Below, piece by piece: positions 2,225 through 63,084 of a DNA stretch of 64,000 nucleotides; the stretch's first letter is position 1, and every line of letters begins with the position of its first letter. This DNA is from Segatella oris (GTDB lineage Bacteria; Bacteroidota; Bacteroidia; Bacteroidales; Bacteroidaceae), in NCBI RefSeq assembly GCF_900637655.1, contig NZ_LR134384.1, positions 2,790,001-2,854,000 of the forward strand, given 5' to 3'. Made by a program: the position numbers and the translations under genes. The notes under the pieces were generated by a model that was not told where the DNA came from, did not search any database, and was given only the letters and a program-made list of their open reading frames with translations.

Positions 2225-2560
2225 ATTGCTCTTGAATGCTTCGCGAATTTGAAATTGTTCTTCTCCTCGCTCCAAATACGCGCTGTTTTTCGGTGGTTTG
2301 CAATGCGTTGATAGTCAAACTATTATGTGTTCTGAAACAAAATATAGGTCAAAATCATGCAAGAAATCACTGCGATTAACGTCAAATTACCGCCTGATTT
2401 GCCTGAGATTACCACGCTTTTTGACACAAATACCCGCGCAATTAGCGTCAAATCACGCTGTATCATAAATGAAATCACAAGTTAAGGTGCTTGAAATGGT
2501 GAAATTATTCCCGTTTTCCCGCTTTCCATTTTCTATTTGGTGTGGTCATGAAGTGTTAAA
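2225..2560 (+). repeat. dispersed intergenic element A with 22-bp-period array (units 2373-2482)
   Basis: Five contiguous units of exactly 22 bp begin at 2373, 2395, 2417, 2439 and 2461. They share a core like GCGTCAAATNAC followed by CG at the unit end (for example CAATTAGCGTCAAATCACG at 2439). The left flank carries AAATACGCG and GCAATGCGTTGATAGTCAA. The right flank ends CTATTTGGTGTGGTCATG at 2532-2550 plus AAGTGTTAAA. The same flanks recur at 16.4 and 25.2 kb. The rest of the gene-free stretch 1891-3092 shows only the chelatase promoter and the two small RNA units; nothing was recognised in 1973-2224 or 2561-2779. Confidence 0.8.
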
Positions 2561-2779
2561 ATCAAGGGGATAATCTTTACAAAAAGATGAGGACTTTAGA
2601 GGCTGTTGTTCTGGTTGAATAAGCTTTTTCAAGGAGCACAACCATTGAAAGTGGAATCTGAGTAATGTTTTTTCTCTTGCTTTTTTATGCTTCCATGACC
2701 TACAACTATTTGCTGATGGACTTCCATAAACGTGCTGATGGTCTTAAAAAATGCCACGAGAAGTTTCACTTCAAGACAC

Positions 2780-2843
2780 AAAAAAAGGAGTACCGCTGTA
2801 CTCCGACCTTGTTAACCTTAAATCTAATACTATGAAAAACACG
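2780..2843 (-). ncRNA. probable small RNA, copy 1 of a tandem pair
   Basis: On the minus strand a consensus promoter (see 2847-2878) is followed by about 62 nt. These end in a perfect 7-bp stem GGAGTAC...GTACTCC with a 4-nt loop (2787-2804) and seven U residues (2780-2786), a complete intrinsic terminator. The body contains ATTTAAGGTTAACAAG and no meaningful ORF. It is about 92% identical to copy 2, 180 bp away, while the surrounding sequence is unrelated. On the opposite strand the same stretch would encode only a 7-codon peptide (MKNTLQS), which seems less likely because the promoter points the other way. Confidence 0.6.
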
Positions 2844-2846
2844 TTG

Positions 2847-2878
2847 CAAAGTTAGACAGAATGAATGGAATTTCCAAA
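2847..2878 (-). promoter_or_regulatory. promoter of small RNA copy 1
   Basis: Minus-strand TTTG at 2878-2875, a 20-bp spacer, then TAACTTTG at 2854-2847: an exact match to the Bacteroidetes housekeeping promoter in both elements and spacing. Start of transcription is predicted near 2842. Confidence 0.7.
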
Positions 2879-2959
2879 CATTCTGCCTTATATGGTGTAG
2901 TATTTACAATTTATTAAACCTCTAATAGGTGTTTTTTAACAATTTAAGAAATAAGACAT

Positions 2960-3023
2960 AAAAAAAGGAGTACCGCCGTACTCCAACCTTTGTTAACCTT
3001 AAATCTAATACCATGAAAAACAC
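2960..3023 (-). ncRNA. probable small RNA, copy 2 of a tandem pair
   Basis: Same architecture as copy 1: promoter at 3028-3059, a 62-nt body with ATTTAAGGTTAACAAAG, stem GGAGTAC/GTACTCC at 2967-2984 and seven U residues at 2960-2966. It lies just downstream of the stop codon of the dikinase-domain gene (3093), so its hairpin may also stop read-through from that gene. Differences from copy 1 are a handful of single bases: one swaps a loop base, one is a 1-nt indel, and the stem is untouched. Confidence 0.6.
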
Positions 3024-3027
3024 ATTG

Positions 3028-3059
3028 CAAAATTAATCACTATCTGTGTGCGGTGCAAA
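3028..3059 (-). promoter_or_regulatory. promoter of small RNA copy 2
   Basis: Minus-strand TTTG at 3059-3056, 20-bp spacer, TAATTTTG at 3035-3028. The promoter elements are conserved relative to copy 1 although the spacer sequences are unrelated, which argues that both promoters are functional. Confidence 0.7.
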
Positions 3060-3092
3060 CAAATCACATTATAAATCAATCTGTTAGCCGTT

Positions 3093-6000
3093 TTATTGAC
3101 TTATGTCAATCAATCCTTCCTGTTTCTGACCGTCAATCATAATCCGTAGCGGTTTTTTGAAATGCACATGCCGCACATATGGTGTTTCTTCTACGGCCGG
3201 CATAGCATCTAAAACCTCCTTGCGGACGAAGCCACCCGATGCAGAACAGCTATCAATCGTGAAGTAACCGACCCCGAAAGAAGTGAGATTTTGAAAGAAA
3301 TGCGTGCCTTGTGAAGGGTCAACGTGGTAGTTGTGGAGTGCCACTTCGACAATAATACGCGCGGCAGAAATATGTGGCCATTTCACCGGCACACCGAGAT
3401 AATGGTCGCTGCTGCCCCATCTGCCGGGGCCAATGAGCACATAATGGCGATTGTCGGCAAGGAACTTACGATTGATTCTCTCGATATCATCGGCCACATA
3501 ATAATTGTTCATGGCCGAGAAACTGTCATCATATTTCACGTAAACTACATCGTAGACATCGTCCATGATGCCATGTCCCAAGGCATTATGTGACCTTAGC
3601 AGGCAGTCCTCATCAGCCACTTTTGCGAGGTCTTCATGGAGTATTTGCTTGGCATCTGCAATCGGACGTATCTGCAACAGATAGAGTTCACCGCTCTTGT
3701 CCTCATTGAGATTGCATGCAAACTCTATCTCCACAGGGCGTTTCATGGCTTCTGCACCATGCTTCATCGCCATTTGCAACAATTCCGGGAGAGGGAAAAC
3801 ATCCTGTTGAAGCACGCCTGCAAATGAGATAATCTTGCGTCCGCCGTCGTAGAGTCCGTCGTAAATCACTTGGTCATAGGGGTCGAATGTCGAACAGATA
3901 TAGCGTATCGCACCGTCTTTCTCGGCTTCTTTCACCTTCATTTTCCTGATGTTGAAGCCGTCATCTACTTTGAATTGCCTGCCCACGGGAGCCATATCAA
4001 GAGCGTAAAACTGTGTCTGCGTCTCGCGAAGTGCCGTTTCCCATTCGCTCATTTGCAGCACTTGGTGAGGATGATAGGGCGAAACGCGCAGTGTTTGGCC
4101 GCCGTCTACGATGTATTTTCCTAAGCCTAAAGCTAACGAAACAATGCCTTCTTCGGCGGTTTCATCGCCAATCGGATAGTAATTCAGCGAGCGAAGAACT
4201 CCGCTGAAGGTAGGATAGAAGTGGTCATCATACTGCTTTCCGACCACTTCCTGCAAGATGACAGCCATCTTTTCCTGGTCTATGACATTGCTTGTAGCAG
4301 TCATATAGGCCTTTGAATCACGGTAATAGACCGAGGCATACACACTCTTGATAGCACTTGCCAACATCTCCAGCATCGCTTTCCGGTTGTCTAAACAGGG
4401 TATCATATAGGTACTGTAGATGCCGGCAAAGGGTTGATAATGACTGTCTTCAAGCAAACTTGACGACCGAATGGCGATAGGTGCCTTCACAGCTTCAAAG
4501 AATGTGAGGAAATCTTCAGTCAAACTGTCGGGCAACTGCGCTTTCAAGAAGTGCTGAAGGATGTCTTCATCGCTTGCATCGCTTAGGGCAATAGGGTAGA
4601 GATTGTTGCTTTCCATGAACTGATCAAACACATCCGTGCACAGCACGAGCGTCTTTGGAATCTGCACTTTGACCCCTTCGAGCTGGTTGAATGCAGGATG
4701 AAGCTTGATGATATTGTCCAAAAAGGCCAATCCTCTGCCTTTTCCTCCGAGCGAACCTTCGCCAATCCGTGCGAAATGGGCATAGCGGTCGAACTTCATT
4801 CTGTCGAAAACGGCCACCACTCCGATGTTCTTCATGTGGCGATATTGCACGATAGCATCAAACGTTATCTGTCGATGTGCATCGACATCCTGCAGTTTAT
4901 GCCACGTAATTCCACGTAAGAATTGCGACACAGGGAATATGGCTCGTGCGCTCAACCAACGGCTCATGTGGTTTCGCGAGATATGATAAAGCATGGAATC
5001 ATTGGGGATTTTGAAGATGTTATCCTGCAAATCCTTGAGCGACTTGATGCGAACAATCTCCTCATGTGTCTTGGGATTGCGGAAGATAAAGTCGCCGAAG
5101 CCCATGTGTTCCTCCATAATCAGGCGCAGATCAAGGCTCATCTGCTTTGAATTCTTATCCACAAAGCGGAACCCTTCGGCTTCAGCTTTCTCACGATTTG
5201 CACTTTCTGAACTCTCCATGATCAAAGGCACGTATTCGTCTTTGGCTCGAATGGCTCGCAAAAGCTTCAGTCCAGCCTCTGGATCTTTATAGACATCAGT
5301 GTCCCGGAGCGGTGAAGGCAACAGTTCATTCTCATCGGGCGACACTTCTTTCATCGGGAAACGGGCATCACAGATAACGCCAAGACAATTGTCAGAAAAC
5401 TGATTATAAATCGTCATTGCCTCTTCATAAGTGCGTGCAAGCACGACCTTTGGCCTGCCACGCATACGCAAAGTAGCCTGATGTTTGTTTAATGCTTCGG
5501 TGGCAAACCGCTTGCTTTGTGCAAGAATATAGCTGTAGAGATTGGGCAATATGGATGAATAGAAACGAATACTGTCCTCAACAAGCAGAATCATTTGCAC
5601 CCCACTCTCCTGGATATCGTGTGCAATGTTCATCCTGTCCTCGATGAGTTTGATAATGGAAAGAATGAGATTAGTGTTTCCCAACCAGCAGAAAACATAG
5701 TCGAAGATACGCAAATCCTCGTTCTGCATACGTTTGGTTATGCCGTGAGAAAAGGGCGTAAGCACCACACATGGAATGTTTTTAAAGGCTTGTTTGATAG
5801 ACCTTGCCACGCTGAAAGCATCATTATCGGCCGTTCCCGGCATACAAATCACGAGGTCGATATTGGTGGTATGCATGACGTGCATCGCCTCTTCAGTCGT
5901 TGAAACGCGTGTAAACATCGGCGGATAACGCAGTCCAAGTTCCATATATTCATTGTAGATCTTCTCCTCTATGCGTCCGTCATCCTCCAACATAAAGGCA

Positions 6001-6140
6001 TCATAGGGGTTGGCAACAATCAAAACGTTGTAGATTCTCCGCATCATCAGGTTGGCAAACGTGACATCATGCAGATAAAACTGATTGAATTCGCGCGGTA
6101 TTTTCTCTTCCATGGTCGGTCGCTTTCGTTTCTTTGACAC
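3093..6140 (-). CDS. PEP synthase/PPDK N-domain protein with receiver-like N-terminus
   Basis: 1015 residues. Two response-regulator-like regions come first: residues about 37-170 (degenerate; LVICMPGTADND where a phospho-Asp would sit) and about 183-335 (ILLVEDS strand, GVICDARFPM with Asp258 as candidate acceptor). The pyruvate phosphate dikinase nucleotide-binding domain follows, with GSLGGKGRGLAF around 463-473 and IAIRSSSLLEDSHYQPFAG around 560. GPGRWGSSDHYLGVPV occurs towards the C-terminus. No phospho-His swivel domain or PEP-binding barrel is evident, so it is probably not a full PEP synthase. Similar proteins in Bacteroides are annotated as phosphoenolpyruvate synthase. Function may be a regulated phosphotransfer to an unknown partner. 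It stands alone, with small RNA genes downstream. Confidence 0.8.
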   Translation of the reverse strand: MSKKRKRPTMEEKIPREFNQFYLHDVTFANLMMRRIYNVLIVANPYDAFMLEDDGRIEEKIYNEYMELGLRYPPMFTRVSTTEEAMHVMHTTNIDLVICMPGTADNDAFSVARSIKQAFKNIPCVVLTPFSHGITKRMQNEDLRIFDYVFCWLGNTNLILSIIKLIEDRMNIAHDIQESGVQMILLVEDSIRFYSSILPNLYSYILAQSKRFATEALNKHQATLRMRGRPKVVLARTYEEAMTIYNQFSDNCLGVICDARFPMKEVSPDENELLPSPLRDTDVYKDPEAGLKLLRAIRAKDEYVPLIMESSESANREKAEAEGFRFVDKNSKQMSLDLRLIMEEHMGFGDFIFRNPKTHEEIVRIKSLKDLQDNIFKIPNDSMLYHISRNHMSRWLSARAIFPVSQFLRGITWHKLQDVDAHRQITFDAIVQYRHMKNIGVVAVFDRMKFDRYAHFARIGEGSLGGKGRGLAFLDNIIKLHPAFNQLEGVKVQIPKTLVLCTDVFDQFMESNNLYPIALSDASDEDILQHFLKAQLPDSLTEDFLTFFEAVKAPIAIRSSSLLEDSHYQPFAGIYSTYMIPCLDNRKAMLEMLASAIKSVYASVYYRDSKAYMTATSNVIDQEKMAVILQEVVGKQYDDHFYPTFSGVLRSLNYYPIGDETAEEGIVSLALGLGKYIVDGGQTLRVSPYHPHQVLQMSEWETALRETQTQFYALDMAPVGRQFKVDDGFNIRKMKVKEAEKDGAIRYICSTFDPYDQVIYDGLYDGGRKIISFAGVLQQDVFPLPELLQMAMKHGAEAMKRPVEIEFACNLNEDKSGELYLLQIRPIADAKQILHEDLAKVADEDCLLRSHNALGHGIMDDVYDVVYVKYDDSFSAMNNYYVADDIERINRKFLADNRHYVLIGPGRWGSSDHYLGVPVKWPHISAARIIVEVALHNYHVDPSQGTHFFQNLTSFGVGYFTIDSCSASGGFVRKEVLDAMPAVEETPYVRHVHFKKPLRIMIDGQKQEGLIDISQ

Positions 6141-6222
6141 AAAAATAACACTTTATTTCTGAAATCAGAGCAATCAGTTCAATTAATCACCGAAACCGAA
6201 TGGTTCATAGAGAGAATATCGC

Positions 6223-6230
6223 TAACTTTG
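6223..6230 (+). promoter_or_regulatory. -7 promoter element for the GSCFA gene
   Basis: TAACTTTG, 23 bp before the start codon; no clear TTTG at -33. Confidence 0.5.
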
Positions 6231-6253
6231 CAATAAGCAACAAATGACAGCGT

Positions 6254-7087
6254 ATGGAATTCAGAACAAAAGTGGAAATTGCCGCGTCTTCATGGCAAAT
6301 CAAACCTGCACAGCACCTTTTATTCATTGGTTCTTGCTTTGCAGAAAGCATTGGAAACAAGTTCAAGGATGAGCAGTTTCCTACCGTAATCAATCCTTTT
6401 GGCGTGATGTATAACCCTGCAAGCATCCTCCATTCTGTTGAACAACACTGCAAAACGCATGATTTCGTACCCGATGTAACCGTTCTCACGCTCGGAACCA
6501 ACCATGTTTATGTGCTGAAAGAGACCAAAGAGATTGTTGATAACTGCCGGAAAAGACCACAATCGCTGTTTGATGAATGCGAATTGAGCGTTGCCCAATG
6601 TGTTGATTACCTGCAAAAGGCCACGCAATGTCTGTTATCCTGCAACCCAAACATGCACATCATCATCACCGTCAGCCCCATTCGGTACCGCAAATACGGC
6701 TTCCATGGGAGTCAACTCGGCAAGGCTACGTTGCTGCTGGCAGCCGAACAACTGTCTCACGAAAGCCAAGTGGATTACTTTCCTGCCTATGAAATCATGA
6801 ATGATGAGCTTCGCGACTACCGCTTCTACAAAGAAGACATGTTGCATCCAAGCCCTCAAGCCGTGGAATATATATGGGAACAATTTGCCGAAACCTACTT
6901 CCATGCCGACGTGTTCACGATGATGCGCGAATGGAAACCTATCAAAGAAGCACTTCATCACAGACCTTTCAATCCAGAAAGTGAAGACTATCAGGCATTC
7001 ATGGCACTCACAAAAGAGCGGTTAACCATATTTATGAAAAAGTACAGCCTCTCCCCCTGGCCCCTCCCCGAAGAGGGAGGGGAGTAG
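6254..7087 (+). CDS. GSCFA domain protein
   Basis: 277 residues. The family-defining motif GSCFAES is at residues 32-38, with NPFGVMYNP and HPSPQAVEYIWEQF (about 195) as further conserved blocks. The GSCFA family resembles SGNH/GDSL hydrolases: Ser/Gly near the N-terminus and a late HPS. The substrate is unknown, possibly a cell-envelope glycan ester. There is no signal peptide. The last dozen residues (...SPWPLPEEGGE) are encoded by a GC-rich dispersed repeat, so the native C-terminus was probably shorter. Own promoter at 6223; monocistronic, convergent with the YfhO gene. Confidence 0.85.
   Translation: MEFRTKVEIAASSWQIKPAQHLLFIGSCFAESIGNKFKDEQFPTVINPFGVMYNPASILHSVEQHCKTHDFVPDVTVLTLGTNHVYVLKETKEIVDNCRKRPQSLFDECELSVAQCVDYLQKATQCLLSCNPNMHIIITVSPIRYRKYGFHGSQLGKATLLLAAEQLSHESQVDYFPAYEIMNDELRDYRFYKEDMLHPSPQAVEYIWEQFAETYFHADVFTMMREWKPIKEALHHRPFNPESEDYQAFMALTKERLTIFMKKYSLSPWPLPEEGGE
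7049..7085 (+). repeat. GC-rich hairpin repeat forming the 3' end of the GSCFA gene
   Basis: Contains CCCCTCCCCGAAGAGGGAGG, a stem of C/T-rich and G/A-rich arms around GAAG. It belongs to the family also seen at 7246, 10293, 11700, 28623, 29067, 49183 and 49370. Here it is translated to PLPEEGGE and supplies the stop codon. It may act as a terminator. Confidence 0.75.
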
Positions 7088-7242
7088 AATGCCTTAGAAC
7101 TTGCATTGCAAAATGCACTATAGAGAAGTATGTTGTTCATCTTTCTCTTTTGGGAAAGGCCGTGAGAGAGGGGATGTTTCCTTGGAGTAGGAAGTAGTAT
7201 ATACTGGAACTCACATTGCAAAATATGCTATAAGAAAGCATA

Positions 7243-9756
7243 TTACTCCCCTCCCTCTTCGGGGAGGGGCTGGGGGTGAGGCTGCTTTCTCTTGAAATAG
7301 ACACCCAGAAGCACTACCAACAGCAGCACACCATAAGAGAGATAAGCCACGGTTTCGGTTTGCTTTACACTCTTTGGATCAAAGGTAAGCACCACCGTAT
7401 GATGCCCCTTGTCAACATTCAGCGCGCGAAGTACATAGTTTACACGGCCTAACTCCACGGCTTTCCCGTCGACTGTAGCCGTCCATTCGGGATAGAATAT
7501 CTCGGAAAAGACCACAATTCCCCCCGTAGCACTACGCACATCATACGTGAGTTGATTGGGTTCGTAGGCTGTTATCTTTACGATTGACGTGCTGTCTTGG
7601 GCTTTTGACTCGCCCAACTGACTCCGGAAGCGTGCGTCGGCAATGGCTTCATGGCGCAAGTCAAGTTTTCCAAGTCCGTCAAGTTCTTCATTTGCATTCT
7701 TCACATAAGTGATTTTATCCACAAACCAAGCATTGCCATAGACGTAAGGGTTCTGTATTGCCACCGTCTGATTGCTCTGGAGAGGCACAATGAAGTATTT
7801 GGCATTGAGCATGTTCAGCACAGGGAAGATGCTGTTTCCATTGACCTTGGTCATGTCTCCGCCTGCCTGTGCGATGGCGGGCATGGTCTTTTGCATCTCA
7901 GGACTGATGTAAGCATCAATCAATTCCTGGTATCTGCGTAGCTTGGCAGCATGATATCCGCCGATACTCTTATGATAGAAACTGGTTTCATTCTCGTTGA
8001 ACGTATTGCTTGCAAAGTTCAGAACACGATAGTCCAAGGCCTTGTCTTGCAGTATCTGACGGTCGGTCTGCGTCATCGGCTGTGCCTGTTCGCGCACGCT
8101 CTTCTCTACAAACATGCCGTCATTGAGGTAGCGTTTGTTCACTTGCCACATGTCGGCAAGACACAAAACAGTAATTGCAATCATCATAAACTCTACCCGC
8201 AGCTTCTTCATCTTGTAGAGGAAGAGACACAATGTGCCGATAACGATAATCCAGAACGACCGCCAACAGTCGGCCGTGAATATGCTTTCGCGGATGCTTC
8301 TCAGGTTGGACAGCAGTGGCGTAAGATATTCGGCAGGGATTGATTTCAGGGCTTGCATCTCTGAACTTGAAATGAAATCAGAGAAGAAAAGCGTCGGCAT
8401 GAGGGCAAAGAGCAGGGCAATGCCGGCCGTCAGACCAAAGCTGATATAGACATATTTGATTTTCTTTGTCAGAATATCCGGCTCGTCTACAATCTTCTTC
8501 AGCGTCATCATAGCCAGCAACGGTATGGTAAACTCGGCAATAACAAGTATAGATGCCACCGTTCGGAACTTGCTGTACATCGGTATGTAGTCAAGGAAGA
8601 AGTTGGTAAACGGCATGAAATTACGCCCCCACGAAAGCAAAACGCTCAACACCGTGGCTGCCAATAACGCCCATTTCGTGGGACCTTTCACGATAAACAG
8701 GCCCAAGACGAAAAGCATCAGCACGAAAGCGCCCACATAGACTGGCCCACTTGTGCCCGGCTGTTCGCCCCAATACTGCCCCAACTGCTGATAAATTTGC
8801 ATGAAATTCGGGTCGGCAATCTTCATGGCCTCAGTGTTGGCAGCCAGCGGAACCGATGCTCCGCCCTTGGTATTAGGCACGAGCAGCGTCCAAGTTTCAT
8901 CCACACCATAGCTCCACTGCGTAATATAATCGCGGTCAAGTCCGCTGTTAGTCTGATTGGCTGCATTCTTTTTGACGAGTTCACTCTTGCCTCTCATGCT
9001 CTCTTGAGCATACTGCCAGGTGTGATAAAGGTTGGAAATATTCATCAACACACCAATCAATGCACCCGCAGCACATACAGCTGTGGCCTTCATAAACTGC
9101 TTCATGGTCTTCTTTCTGACAGCATCGACCAAATAAGCAATAATCATAAAGAGGATGATGAACAGATAATAATAGGTCATCTGCACATGATTGGCATCAA
9201 CTTCAAAGGCTGCAAAGATTGCCGTGACAATGAACCCCCATAGATATTTGCCCCGATAAGAGAGCACGATGCCTGCTATCAGCGGTGGAAGATAGGCCAA
9301 AGCCATCACCTTCCAGATGTGTCCGGCAGCGATGATAATAAAGAAATACGATGAGAAAGCCCATATGATAGAACCTAAAACGGCTAAAGCCCGTCGGAAA
9401 TCATAGGCTCGAAGCAGGATATAGAAGCCCAGAAGATAGGCAAAGACATACCAAACGTTCTCTGGAAGCCACAGATGATAGGCCTTCACTGCTTGATTAA
9501 GCACACTTACACTCTTGTAAGATGGCGCCGTCTGATAAGTCGGCATACCACTGAAAGTGGCGTTAGTCCAACGCGAAACCTTACCGGTACGCTCGTGATA
9601 TTCAGCCGTTTCCTGTCCTGCTCCACGTCCCGCCGATGCGTCATGTCGGTAGAGTATGCGTCCGTCTACATCCGCAGGAAAGAAGTAGGCAAATGATATT
9701 ACCGCGAAAATAATGACTACCAGCAGGTCTGGTAGATATTCCTTCAAAGCTTTCAT
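7243..9756 (-). CDS. YfhO family membrane protein
   Basis: 837 residues, an integral membrane protein with about a dozen predicted segments. The first is residues 10-28, dense clusters lie at 95-210 and 330-430, and a last helix at about 800-820 is followed by KRK. The large luminal loop has RWTNATFSGMPTYQT near residue 62 and YHAAKLRRYQELID in the C-terminal half, typical of YfhO (DUF2723-like glycosyltransferase C fold). In Firmicutes YfhO helps glycosylate lipoteichoic acid. In Bacteroidetes, which lack it, an envelope glycosyltransferase role is inferred. The C-terminal tail PHPQPLPEEGGE is encoded by a dispersed repeat, as in the convergent GSCFA gene. Confidence 0.85.
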   Translation of the reverse strand: MKALKEYLPDLLVVIIFAVISFAYFFPADVDGRILYRHDASAGRGAGQETAEYHERTGKVSRWTNATFSGMPTYQTAPSYKSVSVLNQAVKAYHLWLPENVWYVFAYLLGFYILLRAYDFRRALAVLGSIIWAFSSYFFIIIAAGHIWKVMALAYLPPLIAGIVLSYRGKYLWGFIVTAIFAAFEVDANHVQMTYYYLFIILFMIIAYLVDAVRKKTMKQFMKATAVCAAGALIGVLMNISNLYHTWQYAQESMRGKSELVKKNAANQTNSGLDRDYITQWSYGVDETWTLLVPNTKGGASVPLAANTEAMKIADPNFMQIYQQLGQYWGEQPGTSGPVYVGAFVLMLFVLGLFIVKGPTKWALLAATVLSVLLSWGRNFMPFTNFFLDYIPMYSKFRTVASILVIAEFTIPLLAMMTLKKIVDEPDILTKKIKYVYISFGLTAGIALLFALMPTLFFSDFISSSEMQALKSIPAEYLTPLLSNLRSIRESIFTADCWRSFWIIVIGTLCLFLYKMKKLRVEFMMIAITVLCLADMWQVNKRYLNDGMFVEKSVREQAQPMTQTDRQILQDKALDYRVLNFASNTFNENETSFYHKSIGGYHAAKLRRYQELIDAYISPEMQKTMPAIAQAGGDMTKVNGNSIFPVLNMLNAKYFIVPLQSNQTVAIQNPYVYGNAWFVDKITYVKNANEELDGLGKLDLRHEAIADARFRSQLGESKAQDSTSIVKITAYEPNQLTYDVRSATGGIVVFSEIFYPEWTATVDGKAVELGRVNYVLRALNVDKGHHTVVLTFDPKSVKQTETVAYLSYGVLLLVVLLGVYFKRKQPHPQPLPEEGGE
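7246..7281 (-). repeat. GC-rich hairpin repeat forming the 3' end of the YfhO gene
   Basis: Minus-strand copy of the 7049 repeat. Between the two copies, 7092-7135 and 7205-7245 share a diverged stretch (GAACTYRCATTGCAAAATRY), suggesting that a larger unit was duplicated between these convergent genes. Confidence 0.7.
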
Positions 9757-9944
9757 GATGTTGTTTATAAACGTTTATTTCGTGCAAAGATAGATATTTT
9801 AAATGATAAAACGTGAAAAAAGGAATAATATCATGAGCCGACAGGCAATTTATGAAATATTATTCTGCCCTGTTTTCCATGATGAAAGGCAATGAATATC
9901 GCTGTGAAATGTAAAGTTTTATTGTCTGAAAAGAGGGGGTTGAA

Positions 9945-10255
9945 AATCCACGAAATAGAAAAACGAAAGCAGTTTTCAAGCTGATTTCGAGCCATTTTCT
10001 TTCACCTTATCTTGCAATATACATCATCTTAGCTCGTGTTTTGCGTCAGATGACACTCCTATCTGCATCAAAACACAATGCAAAATGAAGCAGATGAGCA
10101 TGCAATTTGCATCAAACGAGAGGACTTCTCCACCTTATTTTTCTTCATATTTTGCCTTGTTCTTTATAATAACTTGATTGTCAACGCATTGCAAACTCGC
10201 TCAAAACTCGCGTATTTTCGACCGCAATGCTTTTGTTTCTCAGCACGGCCTGTCT
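9945..10255. repeat. dispersed intergenic element B with 22-bp-period array (units 10015-10124)
   Basis: Five units start at 10015, 10037, 10059, 10081 and 10103, each 22 bp, with cores like TTGCGTCAGAT and TTTGCATCAAAC. The flank GATTGTCAACGCATTGCAAA (10170-10195) and CGCGTATTTTCG are the reverse complement of the left flanks of elements A and C, so the whole element is probably inverted here. It lies between divergent yfhO and mtnN. Confidence 0.7.
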
Positions 10256-10292
10256 CGCAAAGGCTTTTGTAAAAGAATTTAATAGATACCCA

Positions 10293-10424
10293 CCCCCGAC
10301 CCCTCCCCAAGGGAGGGGAGTGCTAACTTGCATAACCTCCCCCAACCCCTCCCAAGGAGGGGAGTGCTAACTTGCGGAGCCTCCCCCTGCCCCTCCCAAG
10401 GAGGGGAGTTCAAACTTGCAAGGA
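10293..10424 (+). repeat. three tandem 44-bp copies of the GC-rich hairpin repeat
   Basis: Units start at 10293, 10337 and 10381. Each reads CCCCCnnCCCCTCCCaaGG AGGGGAG and then GTGCTAACTTGC or GTTCAAACTTGC. The strong CCCCTCC/GGAGGGG arms form one hairpin per unit. Confidence 0.8.
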
Positions 10425-10437
10425 AATTACCACTGTT

Positions 10438-10534: not shown

Positions 10535-10554
10535 TAAGCAAACAGAAAGCAAGC

Positions 10555-16347: not shown

Positions 16348-16675
16348 TTTAACACTTCATGACCACACCAAATAGAAAATGAAAAGCGGGAAAACGGGAA
16401 TAATTTCACCATTTCAAGCATCTTAGTTTTGTGATTCCATTCATCATGCATTGCAATCTGACTTGAATGACCGTGCCATTTGACTCAAAACACGTGGTCA
16501 TTTGAGGCTGTTTGTGGGTTGATTTGACGCAGATTGCATGGTTTTCCAGCATGATTATACGCTGTGATTTGCTTTATTTTGTGTAATGTTTTGATTGTCA
16601 ATGCTTTATAAATGGCCAAAAACTGGCCGTTTTTCTGGGTTGAGATGCTTTCGTTTTCAAATACGCGAGCTATGA
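16348..16675 (-). repeat. dispersed intergenic element C with 22-bp-period array (units 16427-16536)
   Basis: Inverted copy, closely related to element D at 25 kb. Minus-strand units begin at 16536, 16514, 16492, 16470 and 16448, and the third unit is identical to that of D. The shared left flank includes AAAGCATTGACAATCAAAA and ATCACAGCGTATAATCAT. The right end is CTATTTGGTGTGGTCATG (16357-16376 region). Lies between rpsO and the MscS gene. Confidence 0.85.
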
Positions 16676-25034: not shown

Positions 25035-25291
25035 CTTATAAAGCATTGACAATCAAAATATTACAAAAAACAAAGCAAATCACAGCGTATAATCATTCTG
25101 AAAAACCACACAATCTGCGTCAAATCAGTCCACAAACTGCCTCAAATGACCACGTGTTTTGAGTCAAATGGCACGGTCATTCAAGTCTGATTGCAACGCA
25201 TAATGAATGGAATCACAAACCAAGAAGCTTGAAACTGCAAAACAACTCCCGTTTTCCCGCCTGTTTTTTTCTATTTGGTGTGGTCATGAGA
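25035..25291 (+). repeat. dispersed intergenic element D with 22-bp-period array (units 25111-25220), interrupted by an IS
   Basis: Five units at 25111, 25133, 25155, 25177 and 25199. Very similar to inverted element C, including the left flank AAAGCATTGACAATCAAAA. Its right end GTGGTCATGAGA stops at the IS boundary, and the missing TGTTAAAA continues after the IS at 26463. The stretch 24755-25034 upstream holds nothing recognisable beyond the rnr leader. Confidence 0.88.
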
Positions 25292-28770: not shown

Positions 28771-29062
28771 CTTCATAAAGCTTATTGTTGGGCATAACTA
28801 CATTAGTTTCAATTCCAATAAGAGTGCAATCATTACCCTTCATAAAGCCTATTGCAAGGCAAAACTACATTAAATTCAATTCCAACAAGAGTGCAATCAC
28901 AACCCTTCATAAAGCCTATTGCAAGGCAAAACTACATTAGTTTCAATTCCAACAAGAGTGCAATCATAACCCTTCATAAAGCCTATTGTAGGGCATAACT
29001 ATATTAATTTCAATTCCAACAAGAGTGCAATCATAACTCTTCATAAAGCTTATTGCAGGGCA
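28771..29062. repeat. 67-bp tandem repeat, four full copies and a partial fifth
   Basis: CTTCATAAAGC begins at 28771, 28838, 28905, 28972 and 29039, a constant 67-bp step. Each unit contains GGGCATAACTACATTAG or GGCAAAACTACATTAG and CAACAAGAGTGCAATCA. Copies differ at a few positions. The minus strand of each unit has TAGTTNTG/TAGTTATG, which resembles a -7 promoter element. No ORF runs through the array. Confidence 0.9.
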
Positions 29063-29066
29063 AAGC

Positions 29067-38811: not shown

Positions 38812-38935
38812 AAAATATAAATGTTTAATTAATCGGGACTACCCCGACAATATTAAAAAAATAATCCGTTTGAAAAACGATTGAAGTAAAGTGAGTGATA
38901 TTCTCTGTCAAGACAACTGCTGTCAGATGAATTTC

Positions 38936-39023
38936 CAATCTGCATCAGGTTACGGTGTGATTTGCATCAGATCAGCGTGTAATATGAGTCATTTCACCAC
39001 GCAAGATGCGTCAGATTGCAAAG
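38936..39023. repeat. 22-bp-period array E inside the ribosomal operon
   Basis: Four clear units at 38936, 38958, 38980 and 39002 (CAATCTGCATCAGGTTACGG, TGATTTGCATCAGATCAGCG, TAATATGAGTCATTTCACCA, CAAGATGCGTCAGATTGCAA, each plus two bases) and a degenerate fifth from 39024. Lies in the 273-bp rpsN-rpsH gap. A small hairpin TCGGG/CCCGA (38842-38857) lies between the array and rpsH. The flanks of the larger element are not recognisable here. Confidence 0.8.
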
Positions 39024-51267: not shown

Positions 51268-51466
51268 TAAAACAGACTCTCTTTGCAGGATATTAATAAA
51301 CCATGAATAAAAGTAATACAAGTCATTTGATTTCCGTAGTTATACGCGCTGGCTTCTATAAAAGCTGAGTGTTTGAGTAACAACAAGAAAGAAACAAAGA
51401 CCAATCAATAAAGAATAAACACCTAATGCAAATCAGCAGCTTAAACACTTCTATTTAATTACCTCG

Positions 51467-51554
51467 CAATTTGCATCAAATCACCACGCATTTTGAGTCA
51501 AATCAGAGTGTGAGTTAAGTCAGATTACAGCGCAATCTGCATCAAATTACACAG
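51467..51554. repeat. 22-bp-period array F
   Basis: Four units at 51467, 51489, 51511 and 51533 (CAATTTGCATCAAATCACCA, CATTTTGAGTCAAATCAGAG, TGAGTTAAGTCAGATTACAG, CAATCTGCATCAAATTACAC, each plus two bases), with a degenerate preceding unit at 51445. Between the convergent flavoprotein and barrel genes. Larger flanks not recognisable. Confidence 0.8.
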
Positions 51555-54700: not shown

Positions 54701-54974
54701 TGAAGCGGTGTCTGCTGTCAAGCACATAGTTTAGAGCATTGAAATTCTTCTGCCGAGGAGCACCATAATAAGTAGTATCCTGTTGCTGAGCCAACATAGA
54801 TTCAGACATTGCATTTTCCAAGTCACTCAAGTCGCGTGCCACTGTATCAGGTTCTTGTATGCCAAACTGACGTACAGAGAAAGGCGGCATCACCTCTGTA
54901 GCAGGATTTATTGTAGCCCTACTACTCACAATATACGTTGATACAGATAACAGTAACAAAAATATTCTTTTCAT
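51759..54974 (-). CDS. giant outer membrane protein with duplicated beta-barrel modules
   Basis: 1071 residues with a signal peptide. An N-terminal region (about 85-320) has barrel-like strands. Two homologous modules of about 365 residues follow, 325-700 and 710-1071. Matching blocks in the two modules include EYSFGP/DYSFGP, LIGTRG, LWMKLTNDLRLTLEPT/LWTKLTNDLRVTLEPT, RRWNVYMYAGP/RRWNVYFYAGP and SRNLSLFYSHTVYRMPK/NRNLSLFYSHTVYRMPK. It ends in YNFK, barrel-style. No known family recognised with confidence. Last gene of a five-gene operon; 21 bp after the OmpA-like gene. Confidence 0.8.
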   Translation of the reverse strand: MKRIFLLLLSVSTYIVSSRATINPATEVMPPFSVRQFGIQEPDTVARDLSDLENAMSESMLAQQQDTTYYGAPRQKNFNALNYVLDSRHRFRGDRYMCGNFWNNTFINFGGGVGGFYHNTNAASFTPTLSLRLAAGKVVSPMVSFRLGLEKTWAYSHASATVFNTNQYNSYGGYVDFLYNFSNYLLGYRPERPFSVSGILGLGVQTAELNSWKNADMTSVGASTSGVSVDGHVGVQFKFFASPYASIALEPYFKVGTTKLNLLDNPGYSDPDFSYGINLAYQWNFTKQLSDMVNTGSFWKRFDKDKRYLSDNGQLHHLRFPVFFDYSFGPMYVGRSAGLSLRNTRGFDALAAVGWWLAPAAGVRAGVHVTNGDWKSGTVGGNPAKNLIGTRGVNIDFLFNPFGFTRHYNWDAPFGMNVFTGYEFGGMKKTAASFNGSYEGNYTAFRFGAQLWMKLTNDLRLTLEPTYMQTEHYNGNLDRERYDEYAVKLGLSLLARDKGARNYREVEPDVALNTPRRGFFVGLGFGWNNTVWDWRFTNYQHDAFKNALLFGGYRFSALHSVRLQIEWMKEAQAFFKGIGNDIGKFTYNNGLFSADYQINLFNAMAGYDPLRRWNVYMYAGPTFLFGDGGADFAANIGGMVTYNLSRNLSLFYSHTVYRMPKNRYPHHMVYTRDGIFTNNLNIGVMYSFDAFHDLIARGNNDEPTRRPLFLEYSFGPTFMSKTPISGFKTTGFDSKFLVGWWANSAIGVRSGAHVTNANWNDGHYNNKPVTYLIGTRGALFDLLVNPLGFSSQYNWDSRFGFNLFGGFELGHAKKTNKGFVNTFEGNYHSFRLGGQLWTKLTNDLRVTLEPTFTALKLSTADDNRHNQFSLNVGVAMLMRSRKFRNYDDDLPEEKRHNLPLQGFFAGGGLGWNTTVWRWKFSDQKGNLLKNAMVFAGYNFSTLHAVRVQGEYMAEKMLFPNDADLYREHFNNVLVSFDYQLNAINAISGFDPARRWNVYFYAGPSMLMGTGGFNGALNAGGQVGYNLNRNLSLFYSHTVYRMPKARYPHSLPFTKNGTFTNNINIGVMYNFK

Positions 54975-54995
54975 CTTTCTTTCTGTTTTGTCTAT

Positions 54996-57404: not shown

Positions 57405-57426
57405 CTTTTTTCAAATAATTATATTT

Positions 57427-57984
57427 TTACCATATCGTATAAGAAAGGGTAACTCCTATCTTTGTAGGCAAGATATGCAACGACTTAAAACCATCTTTTG
57501 TAAGACCTGAACCATCATTGAGCTCAATTAACTGTCCATCAGTACGCGTCTTGGCATGACTTGTCCCAACAAGTCCCACACCAGCGTGGGCATCAATTGC
57601 CAACTTATCTGACAAAGCAAAGACATAACCGAAAGTAATCCCTGCACCTAAGGCATAACCATCATAGCATACACCCTTATGTGTTACTTTGTAATCAGCA
57701 ATCAAAAGCCCGGCTCCAACAAAGTGATGATAAAGTGGACGGCCCCCAAAATAATATCTATACTCAGGTTGTACACCTACCACTTTCATATTATCGTGGA
57801 TATAAGGATTGTGATTACCAAAGACAGTCAGACCTAATGTAGAGCGGTTGCCAATTGTCATCTCGGCACCAAGATTATAGGTTTGTGTTGCCAACATCAT
57901 TAAGTCTGTGTTGACACTCAGTTTCTGTGCATGGGAAACTACTGTTCCCAAAGCCATGATAAAAATCAAAAATATCTTTTTCAT
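57427..57984 (-). CDS. DUF3575-like small outer membrane barrel, 185 residues
   Basis: Signal peptide MKKIFLIFIMALGTVVSHAQ. KLSVNTDLMMLATQTYNLGAEM is the DUF3575 start (N....D......N.G.E). Strands with EYRYYFGGRPLYHHFVGAGL and a terminal TLSYTIW. Probably an 8-stranded barrel. Confidence 0.8.
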   Translation of the reverse strand: MKKIFLIFIMALGTVVSHAQKLSVNTDLMMLATQTYNLGAEMTIGNRSTLGLTVFGNHNPYIHDNMKVVGVQPEYRYYFGGRPLYHHFVGAGLLIADYKVTHKGVCYDGYALGAGITFGYVFALSDKLAIDAHAGVGLVGTSHAKTRTDGQLIELNDGSGLTKDGFKSLHILPTKIGVTLSYTIW

Positions 57985-58001
57985 TTCTAATATAGCCTTA
58001 G

Positions 58002-59159
58002 TTATGCATATTTAGTTCCTTTTCCATATCGCTGTTGTTTTGGCAATAACAAATCACTAAAAGTTACTAATGTAACTCCTTTATACAGACTGTTTTCCTG
58101 TAATCGTAACATAGCCATCTGTTTTCTCCTGTTTATCATTGGTTCTTTCACCAACTTAAGCATATTTACGCTAACTATAGAATCAGCCGTCTTCACCGTC
58201 TTTTGTTCAGGTTTACTATCCACTTTCAGTGTTTGTCCTCCTTGTTCTCCAGCTGTACGGACAGCTTTCAAAGAGTCTTCCATATAGCGTTTCTCGTTTT
58301 CCATACGCTGCTGCTCAAAACGTTTTTCATAGTTAACCTTCTCCAATGAGTCACGACGCATCTTGTCAGCAACCTTATTGGCCTCATTGATACTGTCACC
58401 TCGAAGTTTAGCTGTAGCCAATGCTATACGATAGTCATTGTCAACCAGAATACGTTTCTTGTATTTGTTAGCCACTTTCGGCCCGAAATGATAAATCAGT
58501 GATGCCCGCAGAACATCTGTCGAAGCTGCATAAACTAACGGAGAGAATGTAAGTTTATAACCATCCTCAGGTTTTGTCGTTGTATATTCATAACGGTTAC
58601 CGTTGCGTACACGTTCATACTCCTTATATTTTGCAAATACGAGTCCGGCATTCACACCCAAATCAAGATCCAGACAACTGCCATTCATATAAGCATAGAG
58701 CTGACGAACATAACCAAAGGAGAGTCCGCCAAAAAACGAACTACCCCTACGCCCCGTCGCTTTCAACTTAATATCGAAAGCATTTGCACCAACATAGACA
58801 CCCCAATAAAATACATCTTTAGGTTTCTTCCCATGCCAGTATTTCCTCAACTGCAACCTGCCATCATACAGGTCATAAACATGATAAGGAGTCTCTTTCG
58901 ACTGCTCCTTCCAATTAAGACGGCCCTGCAAGCCAATTGTCCATTTACTCCAGTTCTTGTTGCCTAACGTAAATTCTGCTCCTACATTAGGAGTCATGGC
59001 AAGCCAATCCACGGTATTGGTTCTAATGTTGAACCTCTGTCCAAGCGTCAGGGTGTCTACCTTGTTGTAGTACAGCTGCTGTGCATCTGTAGGTGCAACA
59101 AAAAACAACTGCACGAACAGCAGACAGAAAGCCCATCTACATACTTTAGAATGATTCAT
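58002..59159 (-). CDS. DUF3575-like barrel with helical C-terminal extension, 385 residues
   Basis: Signal peptide to about 27. Barrel part with RFNIRTNTVDWLAMTPNVGAEF (DUF3575 start) and LQLRKYWHGKKPKDVFYWGV. From about 230 a charged coiled-coil-like segment (KVADKMRRDSLEKVNYEKRF and on to about 310). The extension is absent from the neighbouring 185-residue paralog and may contact peptidoglycan or the partner proteins. Confidence 0.8.
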   Translation of the reverse strand: MNHSKVCRWAFCLLFVQLFFVAPTDAQQLYYNKVDTLTLGQRFNIRTNTVDWLAMTPNVGAEFTLGNKNWSKWTIGLQGRLNWKEQSKETPYHVYDLYDGRLQLRKYWHGKKPKDVFYWGVYVGANAFDIKLKATGRRGSSFFGGLSFGYVRQLYAYMNGSCLDLDLGVNAGLVFAKYKEYERVRNGNRYEYTTTKPEDGYKLTFSPLVYAASTDVLRASLIYHFGPKVANKYKKRILVDNDYRIALATAKLRGDSINEANKVADKMRRDSLEKVNYEKRFEQQRMENEKRYMEDSLKAVRTAGEQGGQTLKVDSKPEQKTVKTADSIVSVNMLKLVKEPMINRRKQMAMLRLQENSLYKGVTLVTFSDLLLPKQQRYGKGTKYA

Positions 59160-59184
59160 AACTATTTATAAAATCGTTTTCACT

Positions 59185-60612
59185 TTACTTTTTCGTACTC
59201 AACATCTCAAGCAACTGCTTCGCATAGCTGTCATCAGGCTCAAGCTTTATAATCTTTTCTGCATAGCTGACAGCCTGTGGCATTACTTTCTTTGTATAAT
59301 AATAATAGGACAGTTGCTTATAGCATTCTATCATATAATCCTTGTCACCACCATCACGTTCAAGAAGTTCAGCTGCCTGCAAATAATAAGGTTTCGCAAG
59401 TCCACGCTCATTCTTCGGATCCATCAATGCATTGGCTTTTGCTCTCCAATAAAAACCCACATAGCTATCTGGGCGTAACATAGAGATTTCAGCAAACACT
59501 TTCTCTGCTTGTTTAAGTGCTTCCATACTCTTTTCACTCATCTGGCCGTTCGTCTGATTACTTGTAGCTTTACGCCAATAGAGCAATCCCAACTGGAATA
59601 AATCACGTGAGCGGTCGTAAGTGGAGTCCGTTATTTTTGCCAAGTTCTCGCGTGTGTATTTAATTGCATTATCATAGTCACCTATTTTTGAATAGGCATT
59701 GGCAATATCCTTATTTATTCCAGGCACATCCTTTGCTAACGCACGAGCTTGCTCAAACTTCTGAATCGCTTCTGACGTACGGTCTAATCCATTGAGCACA
59801 TAGCCATAATAAAGGTAATCGGTATAACGTATCTTGGCCGAATCTTTATTCATATCCACCAATTCCTTGGCATTCTCCAATGCTGCATTGAAATGTTCCA
59901 AATCAGTGTTACAATAGAGCATCACTCTTAATAAATCTGTATTATGAGGATAGATACTATTACCTTTCGTCGCAATACTCAAGGCTTTTTTGTTATTCCC
60001 AGAAAGAAGAATAGACTGTGCATAGTGCACAAGTTCATTCTCGGTCATCTTTGCCAATCCCTGCTTTTCGTATGAAGCAATTGCTGCATCATATTTCTGG
60101 GCACCATAATACAACTCTGCGACCCGCCCATCTATAGAAATATCAGGACGCAACTCCTTTATAAGATTCAACCGGCGCATGGCCTCAGGCATGTCTGTGA
60201 ATTTCACTAAGTCGGCATACTTAAAATATGCTTCTGGGTCATGACGGTCGAAATATATCGCACGATTATAATAATATTTCGCAGAATCCACCCAACCTTT
60301 CGCTCTTGCAATATCGCCTCCCAAATTGATAGCCTTGGGAGTAATCTTGTAACATCGCTGAGCTTTGTTGAAATACATTTCTGCTTCATCAATTTTTCCT
60401 GCCTGCAAATAGGCTGAACCGATAGCTGCAATCATGTCTGTATTTCCCTTATCCAATTTGATTGCACTTTCTGCATACGATTGAGCCAAGTCTGTATTCG
60501 TCTTAATCAGTTTTACCATTTCTTCAATATTTCCTTTTTGCATTGGATTTTGAGCGAAAGAAGACGAAATTGCTACCCAAAGAATAAAACCTAATAATTT
60601 AAATTTACACAT
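59185..60612 (-). CDS. periplasmic TPR protein, 475 residues
   Basis: Signal peptide MCKFKLLGFILWVAISSSFAQ, then at least nine TPR-type helix pairs across 40-470 (for example AYLQAGKIDEAEMYFNKAQR, AYSKIGDYDNAIKYTRENLA). First gene of the operon; the following genes start 17-25 bp after the previous stop. Probably a scaffold for assembling the outer-membrane proteins encoded downstream. Confidence 0.85.
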   Translation of the reverse strand: MCKFKLLGFILWVAISSSFAQNPMQKGNIEEMVKLIKTNTDLAQSYAESAIKLDKGNTDMIAAIGSAYLQAGKIDEAEMYFNKAQRCYKITPKAINLGGDIARAKGWVDSAKYYYNRAIYFDRHDPEAYFKYADLVKFTDMPEAMRRLNLIKELRPDISIDGRVAELYYGAQKYDAAIASYEKQGLAKMTENELVHYAQSILLSGNNKKALSIATKGNSIYPHNTDLLRVMLYCNTDLEHFNAALENAKELVDMNKDSAKIRYTDYLYYGYVLNGLDRTSEAIQKFEQARALAKDVPGINKDIANAYSKIGDYDNAIKYTRENLAKITDSTYDRSRDLFQLGLLYWRKATSNQTNGQMSEKSMEALKQAEKVFAEISMLRPDSYVGFYWRAKANALMDPKNERGLAKPYYLQAAELLERDGGDKDYMIECYKQLSYYYYTKKVMPQAVSYAEKIIKLEPDDSYAKQLLEMLSTKK

Positions 60613-60682
60613 AATATAATATTGACGGTGTTACGCAACACGATAAAATAAGTCCTATATCTCTAATCTTTATAAATCTGCG

Positions 60683-60690
60683 CAAAGTTA
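60683..60690 (-). promoter_or_regulatory. -7 promoter element of the outer-membrane operon
   Basis: TAACTTTG on the minus strand, about 70 bp before the TPR gene. The remaining stretch 60691-61165 is AT-rich and shows nothing else recognisable. Confidence 0.5.
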
Positions 60691-61165
60691 ACATTTTTTC
60701 TTGCAAGAAAATGAATACACATAAAGAAGCTTTATTAATTTATCATTTATTAACATTATATTTAATCACATCTCCTTTTTCAGAATAGAGTGCTTATTCC
60801 ATTTTCACATTTTCTAAAAATGCAAATCCATCCATAATTTACGTCTTATCCTGGTATAAAAGTATACAAATAAGGCGTAATGGTTGTATATTCTTATTGA
60901 TTAATTATAAGCAAAATAAACTACTTAGCTTATTCTAACACCTATCTCTAATTGGGATATTTTAAAAATATAAGAGGTATTTATAGAAAGTAAAAACGTA
61001 TATATTCGTAGTAAGGTCTTTCTGTTAATCACGCCTTTGTGATTGCCTGATTTTAGTTGACCTTTTATAGTTTTATCCCTAATAAGAGTTGACTCATGTT
61101 ATTCTTTATTCCTAATACAAATTTACTATATTTACCTTATGCCTGATATAGATAGACCATAGCAT

Positions 61166-62815
61166 TCAGAAGCAGAAAGAGAATGCAGCGCCAAGAATGG
61201 GTTGGGAGACGCTTTTCTTTTGTGAGGCAACGTAAGGGGCAATATAGTCACTGATGTTATTGATTGTTTGTCCGTTGAGAGTTATAGAGCGGCCGGCATC
61301 TTTAAGGAAAAGAGTGGGAGCATAGGTTGACCTGTAGGTGCGACGCACAAAATTGTAATCAAGAAAGACTTTCCATGCCATTCTCGATTTACAAGCAAAG
61401 GTGGCAGAAAGTCCTGTTCCTATAATCGTTGCATTATCTCCACCCACTTGAAAGAAATTCCACTTGCTGTAGTAGGGCTTCCCGTTATCTTTTCCGTTCC
61501 CTTTTATTTCGAGTGTCGGCACGGTCTTACCATGTTGCGGATCATATTCAAATGCAATGTCTCGCTGATGTCCTTTAACTTCAGCAGTGACAGCAATGCC
61601 GTCTAAATAGCTTCTGCCCACAAGGAGTTTTGAACCTAATGCAAACCTTTTGCTGATAGGGAAATTGAAGTACACTCCACCGCTCCAGTTGAACTCTGCC
61701 ATGTGGTTAGATTCAACGGTCAGTGTGTAGCTGTCAAGAAATCCGGCATTTACAGAAGCGAGCTGGTTCAGAATTCCAATAGGATGCAGTGCATCCTTAT
61801 CATATCCTTTGACATTACGTGATGTAATCATCAGACGTCCACCCAAGCCAATATACCGATTTAGGAAATAGGCACTCTCGACGCCAACGGCAATGCCACG
61901 TGAAAGTTTAATCTTTCGTTTCTTTTGCCCATGATAATATTCGTTCAGTCCGGGAAGATGCTCCATGAAATCAAGATGACGCTCACTTAGGCCGATACCC
62001 ATTTGCACATTGAAGAAACTTGGATACTTATAAAGGTCAAGTTCGTCATCCCTGTCATGGCGTAACAAACCTTTGTTCTTGAAAAGTAAATCCCCCAAAG
62101 TATAGCCCATTTCTGTAGACAGAATACCAATACCCGCACCGGCAAACGTGTCGCTTGCCCAATGTCTGTTGTTAAGTACGCGCATACAGCCTGTTGCCGT
62201 AGCAAGCATATAGCCTGCAATGCTGTACCATGGGCTTCGAGTCATGCCATATTCTTTATGGAGTATTGTGGCAGCACTAAAGGCTGTGGCCGTATGACCG
62301 GAGGGGAAGGAGTTGTTTGTCGAACCATCCGGACGAAGTTCTCTGACAGAATATTTCATGGTTTCTACTAAAGTAGCCATGATAATCAATGAAGCTGCAC
62401 TGCTGACAGCATAGCGTTTGAGACTGCTTCGCCCCTCCACTCCCGCAACTTTCAGTCCTGTGGTCAGCAATAGTGGAGCATATTGTATATAGTTATCTGC
62501 AGATTGGTGGAAATTCAGTTGGAATTTATTGCGTACTTCCCTGATATTTCTTTTCTCACTTCTTAGTGCAATTCCTGCCACAATCCATGGCAGCCCTGCC
62601 AACGACATAGAAGCGTTGACCCTGTATCTGTATTCCTGCGTGTTATGATGAACTGCATTTCCCATGCTGTCAGTAAGGCTTGTTTCCTCAGTGATACGGC
62701 CTAAAGAGTCTGTCAGAGATGTGGTTGCCAAGCAATTTGCAGCTGTGAAAAGAAACATGAAACTTACTAACGCGCGGCAGTTCTTGTGTTTTATGATTGA
62801 ATTAGCGTGATGCAT
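61166..62815 (-). CDS. PAP2-family phosphatase with C-terminal barrel-like domain
   Basis: 549 residues. Signal-like hydrophobic N-terminus (12-31). The acid-phosphatase motif triad is intact: K154-x6-RP (KYSVRELRPDG), PSGH at 171-174, and R212-x5-H218-x3-D222 (RVLNNRHWASD). After about residue 270 the sequence changes to amphipathic strands (VGVESAYFLNRYIGLGGRLM, FNFPISKRFALGSKLLVGRS, WKVFLDYNFVRRTYRS) and ends AAFSFCF with a terminal aromatic, as in outer-membrane barrels. It probably dephosphorylates a lipid or isoprenoid phosphate in the envelope, with an unusual barrel fusion. Stand-alone gene. Confidence 0.82.
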   Translation of the reverse strand: MHHANSIIKHKNCRALVSFMFLFTAANCLATTSLTDSLGRITEETSLTDSMGNAVHHNTQEYRYRVNASMSLAGLPWIVAGIALRSEKRNIREVRNKFQLNFHQSADNYIQYAPLLLTTGLKVAGVEGRSSLKRYAVSSAASLIIMATLVETMKYSVRELRPDGSTNNSFPSGHTATAFSAATILHKEYGMTRSPWYSIAGYMLATATGCMRVLNNRHWASDTFAGAGIGILSTEMGYTLGDLLFKNKGLLRHDRDDELDLYKYPSFFNVQMGIGLSERHLDFMEHLPGLNEYYHGQKKRKIKLSRGIAVGVESAYFLNRYIGLGGRLMITSRNVKGYDKDALHPIGILNQLASVNAGFLDSYTLTVESNHMAEFNWSGGVYFNFPISKRFALGSKLLVGRSYLDGIAVTAEVKGHQRDIAFEYDPQHGKTVPTLEIKGNGKDNGKPYYSKWNFFQVGGDNATIIGTGLSATFACKSRMAWKVFLDYNFVRRTYRSTYAPTLFLKDAGRSITLNGQTINNISDYIAPYVASQKKSVSQPILGAAFSFCF

Positions 62816-62974
62816 TTACAGTTGTCGGACTTTATTTCTGTGGCAAAGATATATAAAACGATTGAAAAGTGAAAGCTATATGGCCGAAAGTTTATCCTAA
62901 TCTATCTTCAAGAAAGGACAGTTGATAAAGATGTTGCTGATATTAACAGAAATATCATGCCCTGCTTTACTTTG

Positions 62975-63084
62975 CAATCTGCGTCATATTGCGTTGTAAA
63001 GTGACTGGAATGACCGTGCAATCTGCGTCATATTGCGTGGTAAAATGATAGAGATTACAGCGTAAAGTGACGCAAGTTGCAGTG
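62975..63084. repeat. 22-bp-period array G
   Basis: Five units at 62975, 62997, 63019, 63041 and 63063. Units 1 and 3 (CAATCTGCGTCATATTGCGT plus two bases) are nearly identical; units 2, 4 and 5 begin TAAA. Between divergent PAP2 and priA genes. The rest of 62816-63279 shows nothing else recognisable. Confidence 0.8.

Follow-up and report, generated by a model that had tools for sequence, protein, structure and literature searches.

What keeps the period of a tandem array constant while its units diverge? The question is raised by seven intergenic arrays of 22-bp units in a 64,000-nucleotide stretch of Segatella oris DNA, bases 2790001–2854000 of one 3,168,212-base contig (NZ_LR134384.1), which we call the window; its genome of origin, the window genome, is G000. 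A sequence-only reading of the window had described these arrays and offered two explanations, sites for a nucleoid- or partition-type protein on one face of the helix, or a miniature inverted-repeat transposable element (MITE) of the BrickBuilt kind. Using a 22-column weight matrix, trained on part of the very genome scanned, with in-phase chaining and a score of at least 15, we recovered all seven arrays at the coordinates reported by that reading and no further ones, and one second-order Markov shuffle of the window gave 0 (Table 1). The count of four or five units per array held for five of them; arrays 1 and 4 each carry 6 scored units. A model-free lag scan of the non-coding DNA of the window (lags 14–45) returned lag 22 in 7 clusters, lag 44 in 3 and no others. 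Run with the lowest score setting, Tandem Repeats Finder reported period 22 only at 51457–51505 and missed six of the seven arrays. We put at roughly one half the probability that the arrays are chromosome-wide double-stranded binding sites for a putative dimeric architectural protein, as argued below from sequence.

The unit has a consensus close to YAATNTGMNKCARATTRCNNNG, exactly 22 bp long, and combines a frame (TTRC NNN GYAA) and a core as its two inverted half-sites. One dyad of each unit lies within the core and a second, at a distance of 11 bp, within the frame; the dyads recur every 11 bp on a rigid 22-bp lattice, and one core is used within the genome. A common core does exist, as had been proposed, but the form given for it, TGCNTCAAATNAC, is less apt than the dyad TGMNKCA between two arms. 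Strong forward unit matches within 110 bp of an array were in phase in 324 of 326 cases, and 272 of 275 reverse-strand matches fell at phase 17, as expected of a dyad; the arrays had been selected as in-phase, and the informative part of these counts, which confirm the constant phase, is the scarcity of out-of-phase matches. Nearly all arrays used for statistics (68 of 69) have four to six units. Unit identity was 0.549 within an array and 0.535 between arrays at different array places; it is near saturation while the phase is intact. Conservation is very uneven from column to column (0.1 to 1.6 bits), and neighbouring bases are strongly coupled at positions 4–5, 13–14 and 8–10, with AT at 4–5 seen 0 times against 25 expected. 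Arm pairs 4–14 and 5–13 co-vary no more than expected (335 units), and perfect palindromes within the unit are depleted (z −5.3). Coupling of neighbouring bases without covariation of the arms points to a site read by a protein at the DNA level. Together with the individual flanks of 30 of the 88 arrays, it makes protein-bound DNA a better account than hairpins in RNA or the decay of a single transposon.

Hundreds of such arrays per genome had been anticipated, and the wider scan agreed. Two 200-kb blocks of the chromosome held 29 and 14 arrays (0 in one shuffle of each), and twenty 20-kb stretches across the chromosome, scanned without a shuffle control, held 38. The window, blocks and stretches gave 88 arrays in 863 kb, and extrapolation from the twenty stretches yields ~300 per 3.17-Mb chromosome. 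A single shuffle of each of the three largest blocks gave 0 arrays. Placement is intergenic: in the window and the two blocks, 49 of 50 arrays lie in predicted intergenic gaps and the remaining one beyond the last predicted gene, and in the twenty stretches 33 of 38 are intergenic and 5 lie at stretch edges. By gap type, for gaps of at least 150 bp, there were 22 arrays to 46 convergent gaps, 22 to 57 divergent and 38 to 119 tandem, counts that come from a crude gene caller and leave out 6 block-edge arrays. Because arrays occur in every gap type and once within an operon, a role as terminator or operator is not favoured. GC skew in the 20 stretches changes sign several times along the chromosome.

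The earlier remark on intervals of about 6 to 14 kb was correct, and the intervals are in fact regular. Arrays stand ~6 kb apart. Among 67 neighbour gaps in the 863 kb, 38 measured 4–8 kb (20.7 expected) and 8 were below 4 kb (22.4 expected), and neither value was reached in any of 2000 simulations that placed the same array numbers randomly in intergenic regions of at least 250 bp. This result held with length weighting, with gaps of at least 50 bp as sites, with uniform positions and with block A removed. When the analysis was limited to the 20 stretches, gaps of 4–8 kb made up 15 of 20, compared with 5.4–5.8 expected (at most 3 of 2000 simulations).

We then compared relatives, the window genome being grouped in the same genus as P. 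bivia (G010); P. falsenii is G016. Scoring up to 110 candidates per relative, we found the window core in 4 of 39, each a member of the genus; it had 0 matches in other GTDB genomes, from which records of the own or a very near genome were possibly excluded. Loci in relatives carry other cores in the same frame, TAATCAGGCCCAAATTAC in G001, TAATCAGCACCTGATTAC in G020, and still others in G004 and G014. A core-blind pattern of the frame with exact spacing matched at least 117 stretches of GTDB genomes, where naive chance would give ~0.1; among the 80 listed, 76 were titled Prevotella, Prevotellaceae or Hallella, 1 an uncultured bacterium and 3 Acinetobacter. For species with several loci among those listed, the core is mostly common within the species and different between species. 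When frame arrays were sought at periods 19–25, 22 was the only period in G001 (9 arrays) and G004 (3), and G010 had 4 at 22 and 1 at 21. A model-free scan from which low-complexity sequence had been removed found period 22 to be the commonest in six genomes of the genus (47 of 85 clusters in G000, with 20 more at 44; 6 of 22 in G001; 13 of 26 in G003; 5 of 5 in G004; 7 of 11 in P. bivia; 5 of 9 in G023), and 0 period-22 clusters in G009, G018, G008 and 266 kb of other Bacteroidales. Arrays in G008 (L103–L105) have period 21, not 22.

A viral source for the arrays was rejected: the window core had 0 matches in viral sequences and the frame pattern matched 5 viral stretches, namely one Acinetobacter-type iteron array, two copies of another phage array, one P. 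falsenii-like copy and one stretch before two integrase genes. On viral contig L323 (1022–3943), a 22-bp array precedes two tyrosine-recombinase (phage integrase family) genes.

If the arrays are sites for an architectural protein, its dimers would occupy successive pseudo-palindromic sites at intervals of two helical turns, and four to six dimers aligned on ~90–130 bp would bend or wrap the DNA. A protein would have to bind the arrays, presumably one per species, with a specificity co-evolving with the core, and its role would be to anchor or partition the chromosome rather than to control local genes; we prefer the architectural role because arrays occupy gaps of every orientation, convergent, divergent and tandem, and in one case lie inside an operon. 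That a base-exact lattice, a species core and a narrow spacing persist in hundreds of diverged copies makes a trans-acting reader likely. More tentatively, Prevotellaceae might organise their chromosomes by anchor arrays ~6 kb apart, with a fast-evolving reader, a family-wide frame and a core rewritten genome-wide in each species. This would amount to a bacterial chromosome-folding code, in which sites numbering in the hundreds evolve in concert, together with their reader. An architectural reader would also turn the arrays into mapped candidate anchors for Bacteroidota, in which, to our knowledge, little is known of chromosome folding. Interspersed repeats in bacteria are often regarded as selfish debris, with which these arrays contrast.

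Several results weigh against an architectural protein. No binding protein was found. Frame arrays were absent from the 59–180 kb sampled in each of G003, G023, G009, G008 and G018, and in G003 (L082–L086, L197–L199) several 22-bp families coexist, for example TTTCACCATGGTGAAA, TTATACACGTTTGTATAA and GAGAGCCTCTCTT, for which a one-protein model must account; one of the G003 motifs resembles the array that P. histicola has upstream of parC. The regular spacing comes from one genome, with the 4- and 8-kb limits fixed after the positions had been listed, so that its probabilities are optimistic, and it is weaker in single blocks: the fraction of simulations that had equally few gaps below 4 kb was 0.005, 0.105 and 0.016, and the fraction for the coefficient of variation was 0.098, 0.197 and 0.014. 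A weak complementarity is seen in individual pairs of units (z 2.4 and 2.1, the top of 10 such tests), and in copies of the type of PINSR, a P. intermedia repeat compared below, unit 4 is similar to unit 2 or unit 3 read as the reverse complement. Arrays also ride in a repeated element family, here family 1, up to ~400 bp long, whose leader or tail surrounds 43 of the 88.

Positions, moreover, turn over between species. For dnaE, 2 of 15 genomes have a 22-bp array in the ~1.4 kb upstream of the gene; the counts are 1 of 15 for gmk, 7 of 15 for parC and 4 of 14 for etfB, each including the seed genome, and 1 of 14, 0 of 14, 6 of 14 and 3 of 13, respectively, without it. These sets consist of array-bearing genomes with one seed each, and some loci are cut at contig ends; two of the matches (P. 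histicola at parC and G040 at etfB) have another motif, and G001 and G050, both included, are apparently one organism. Upstream of etfB, two sister genomes offer no clean empty site, similarity stopping ~115 bp upstream of the gene. The gap between rpsN and rpsH that holds array 5 is 273 bp in the window genome, and 8 of 8 relatives have no array there (gaps of 60–164 bp). The simplest reading is that array 5 was gained in the window lineage; a strong terminator at this array is unlikely.

This turnover and the shared flanks make a non-autonomous mobile element the most serious rival, possible in our judgement though clearly behind an architectural protein. The units would be sites for the element's own transposase, amplification would occur per species, and target immunity would space the copies; transposases of the Mu and Tn7 type use sites of ~22 bp. 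A minimum spacing between arrays is indeed seen. The leader and tail profiles match almost solely beside arrays, with one exception each, and all 10 exact matches to TGTTAA-N15/16-TTTACAA in 463 kb lie within 170 bp of an array, 6 downstream and 4 upstream, with both in one element and 9 of 10 in the orientation of the array. This end motif of the window family stands in direct orientation. Copies of the PINSR type have YGTAAA at one end and TTTACA at the other, which makes their ends imperfectly inverted. Against such an element, the 45 arrays outside family 1 comprise 9 in a second flank-similarity cluster, 6 within a block of local repeats, and 30 that match no other among the 45, and no clear target-site duplication was evident by eye in ten diverged copies with flanks. 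Of 36 PINSR-type copies, picked as best matches, 34 were ungapped (29 from G114, a two-contig 2.7-Mb genome of the genus, and 5 from P. falsenii), and in these the array is better conserved than the ends (column conservation 0.953, with 0.805 for the leader and 0.855 for the tail). The spacing also appears narrower than plain exclusion requires. In P. intermedia, about three quarters of PINSR regions are common to two strains, and most strain-specific regions are without PINSR (Naito et al. 2015, PMC4755523). The mobile-element alternative of the sequence-only reading keeps some likelihood, given that about half of the arrays belong to one repeated family and positions vary between species; its comparison with BrickBuilt does not fit. 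Even spacing and bare arrays favour a reader that folds the chromosome, whereas shared flanks, turnover and end motifs favour one that moves an element, and the two could be reconciled by the recruitment of a mobile element. A transposase as reader would provide a natural case of genome-wide target immunity.

Far less probable is a structured RNA in which neighbouring units form tandem hairpins. In G001, P. bivia and P. falsenii a unit can be the exact or near reverse complement of an array-mate. The absence of arm covariation in the window genome speaks against RNA hairpins and cruciforms alike, as does the comparison of 77 arrays of other species, where direct similarity exceeded inverted similarity for all unit pairs save 1–4 (inverted slightly higher). 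There was, in addition, no overall complementarity of unit pairs at lags 1–4, and at gathering scores the arrays matched no Rfam family.

Slightly less probable still are iteron-like arrays for a plasmid-type Rep_3 initiator scattered in the chromosome. The 3 Acinetobacter contigs among the 80 listed frame matches have, next to a Rep_3 gene, four 22-bp repeats in direct succession, and PF01051 matched twice in P. bivia and once in P. falsenii. It had no match in 11 of 16 genomes of the genus, some incomplete, including the array-bearing G001, G004, G014 and G020, and with 0 matches in the complete G000 a Rep_3 reader is nearly refuted for the window genome. Neutral minisatellite drift without function is very improbable: slippage creates tandem arrays and some copies arose recently, as shown by the 88% identity of arrays 3 and 4 over 267 bp, but the rigid phase at 55% unit identity, the uneven columns, the conservation of array over flank in PINSR-type copies and the even spacing all oppose it.

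Table 1. Arrays of 22-bp units in the window, and the element around array 1
Feature	Coordinates	Strand	Description
Array 1	2373..2504	+	5-6 units; family-1 flanks; chain score 59 at 6 units
Family-1 element at array 1	2177..2583 (approximate)	+	Leader, array and tail; limits from the match
Array 2	10015..10124	+	5 units; family-1 leader or tail match
Array 3	16427..16536	-	5 units; family-1 flanks
Array 4	25111..25242	+	5-6 units; family-1 flanks
Array 5	38936..39023	+	4 units; own flanks; ribosomal-protein operon, between rpsN and rpsH
Array 6	51467..51554	+	4 units; own flanks
Array 7	62975..63084	+	5 units; own flanks

The limits of the element at array 1 come from a copy ~2 Mb off, with which it has a common stretch from −196 to +210 at 69% identity, and a TGTTAA-N16-TTTACAA motif lies within it at 2554. 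Two copies of FopS, a Bacteroidetes small RNA family (Rfam RF04319), lie near array 1 on the minus strand (2777–2842 and 2957–3023). Right before rpsH, a hairpin-like stretch, TTAATATTGTCGGGGTAGTCCCGATTAATTAA (38812–38856; L397–L404), is present in 9 of 9 genomes of the genus, varied in two, and is possibly a ribosomal-protein control site. Further tandem repeats in the window are found at 28771–29064 (67 bp × 4.4) and 10286–10420 (44 bp × 3). In block A, a second element family surrounds arrays (G000 616793, 745839 and 761171); it starts with a promoter of the Bacteroidetes type by its consensus, TTTG...TATCTTTG, directly followed by a terminator-like hairpin, GGGAAAG...CTTTCCC TTTTTT.

Among known systems, the TAACTGA repeats of Beggiatoaceae and some Bacteroidetes likewise form many intergenic direct-repeat sets per genome, but they are 7 bp long and, in the main genome described, lie mostly just upstream of start codons (PMC4679880). 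The iterons of Acinetobacter Rep_3 plasmids share four contiguous 22-bp direct repeats and a TTAC...GYAA frame, a likeness for which the search pattern selected, and differ in forming one array beside their own Rep_3 gene. BrickBuilt, a MITE of Porphyromonas gingivalis, is also intergenic, and its leader and tail likewise enclose a contiguous short tandem repeat; its unit is 23 bp (AGAYCATARTATCCTCTCRTRTG), its inverted ends are IS5-family-like, and one strain has 19 copies (PMC4596501). The period of 22 and the unrelated unit of the window arrays led us to reject an identity with BrickBuilt, and the nested element suggested earlier does not fit.

The closest counterpart is PINSR, an intergenic, gene-free repeat of 188 bp that occurs 177 times in one P. 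intermedia strain and 184 times in another; according to its authors, who left its function open in 2015, it lacks terminal inverted repeats (PMC4755523). P. falsenii was positive for it by PCR, and one P. intermedia copy lies downstream of tnaA (PMC4755523). We found in P. falsenii a 188-bp-type element, matching over 187–189 columns, with a central array of 4 × 22 bp. In G114, which we infer to be P. intermedia, all 40 scored candidates (of 290) measured 181–188 bp, and an element lies ~240 bp past tnaA; the P. falsenii tnaA locus (L368) is without a copy. The PINSR-type element had 0 matches in G000 (best 5 of 22 candidates scored), and the window elements are unlike it in being longer, or bare arrays, and in their different core. 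Section 3.4 of the PINSR paper is silent on 22-bp units, versions in other clades and spacing (PMC4755523), and our searches of an open-licence library showed no published description of the 22-bp lattice. The family, whose identity in Prevotella the sequence-only reading could not supply, is in part known, its counterpart in the P. intermedia group having been named PINSR in 2015. Intergenic, high-copy and gene-free, with a central 4 × 22-bp array in its G114 and P. falsenii counterpart, PINSR is very probably that clade's version of the array family, judged by the text of that section rather than by the published consensus, and the lattice described here offers an anatomy for it.

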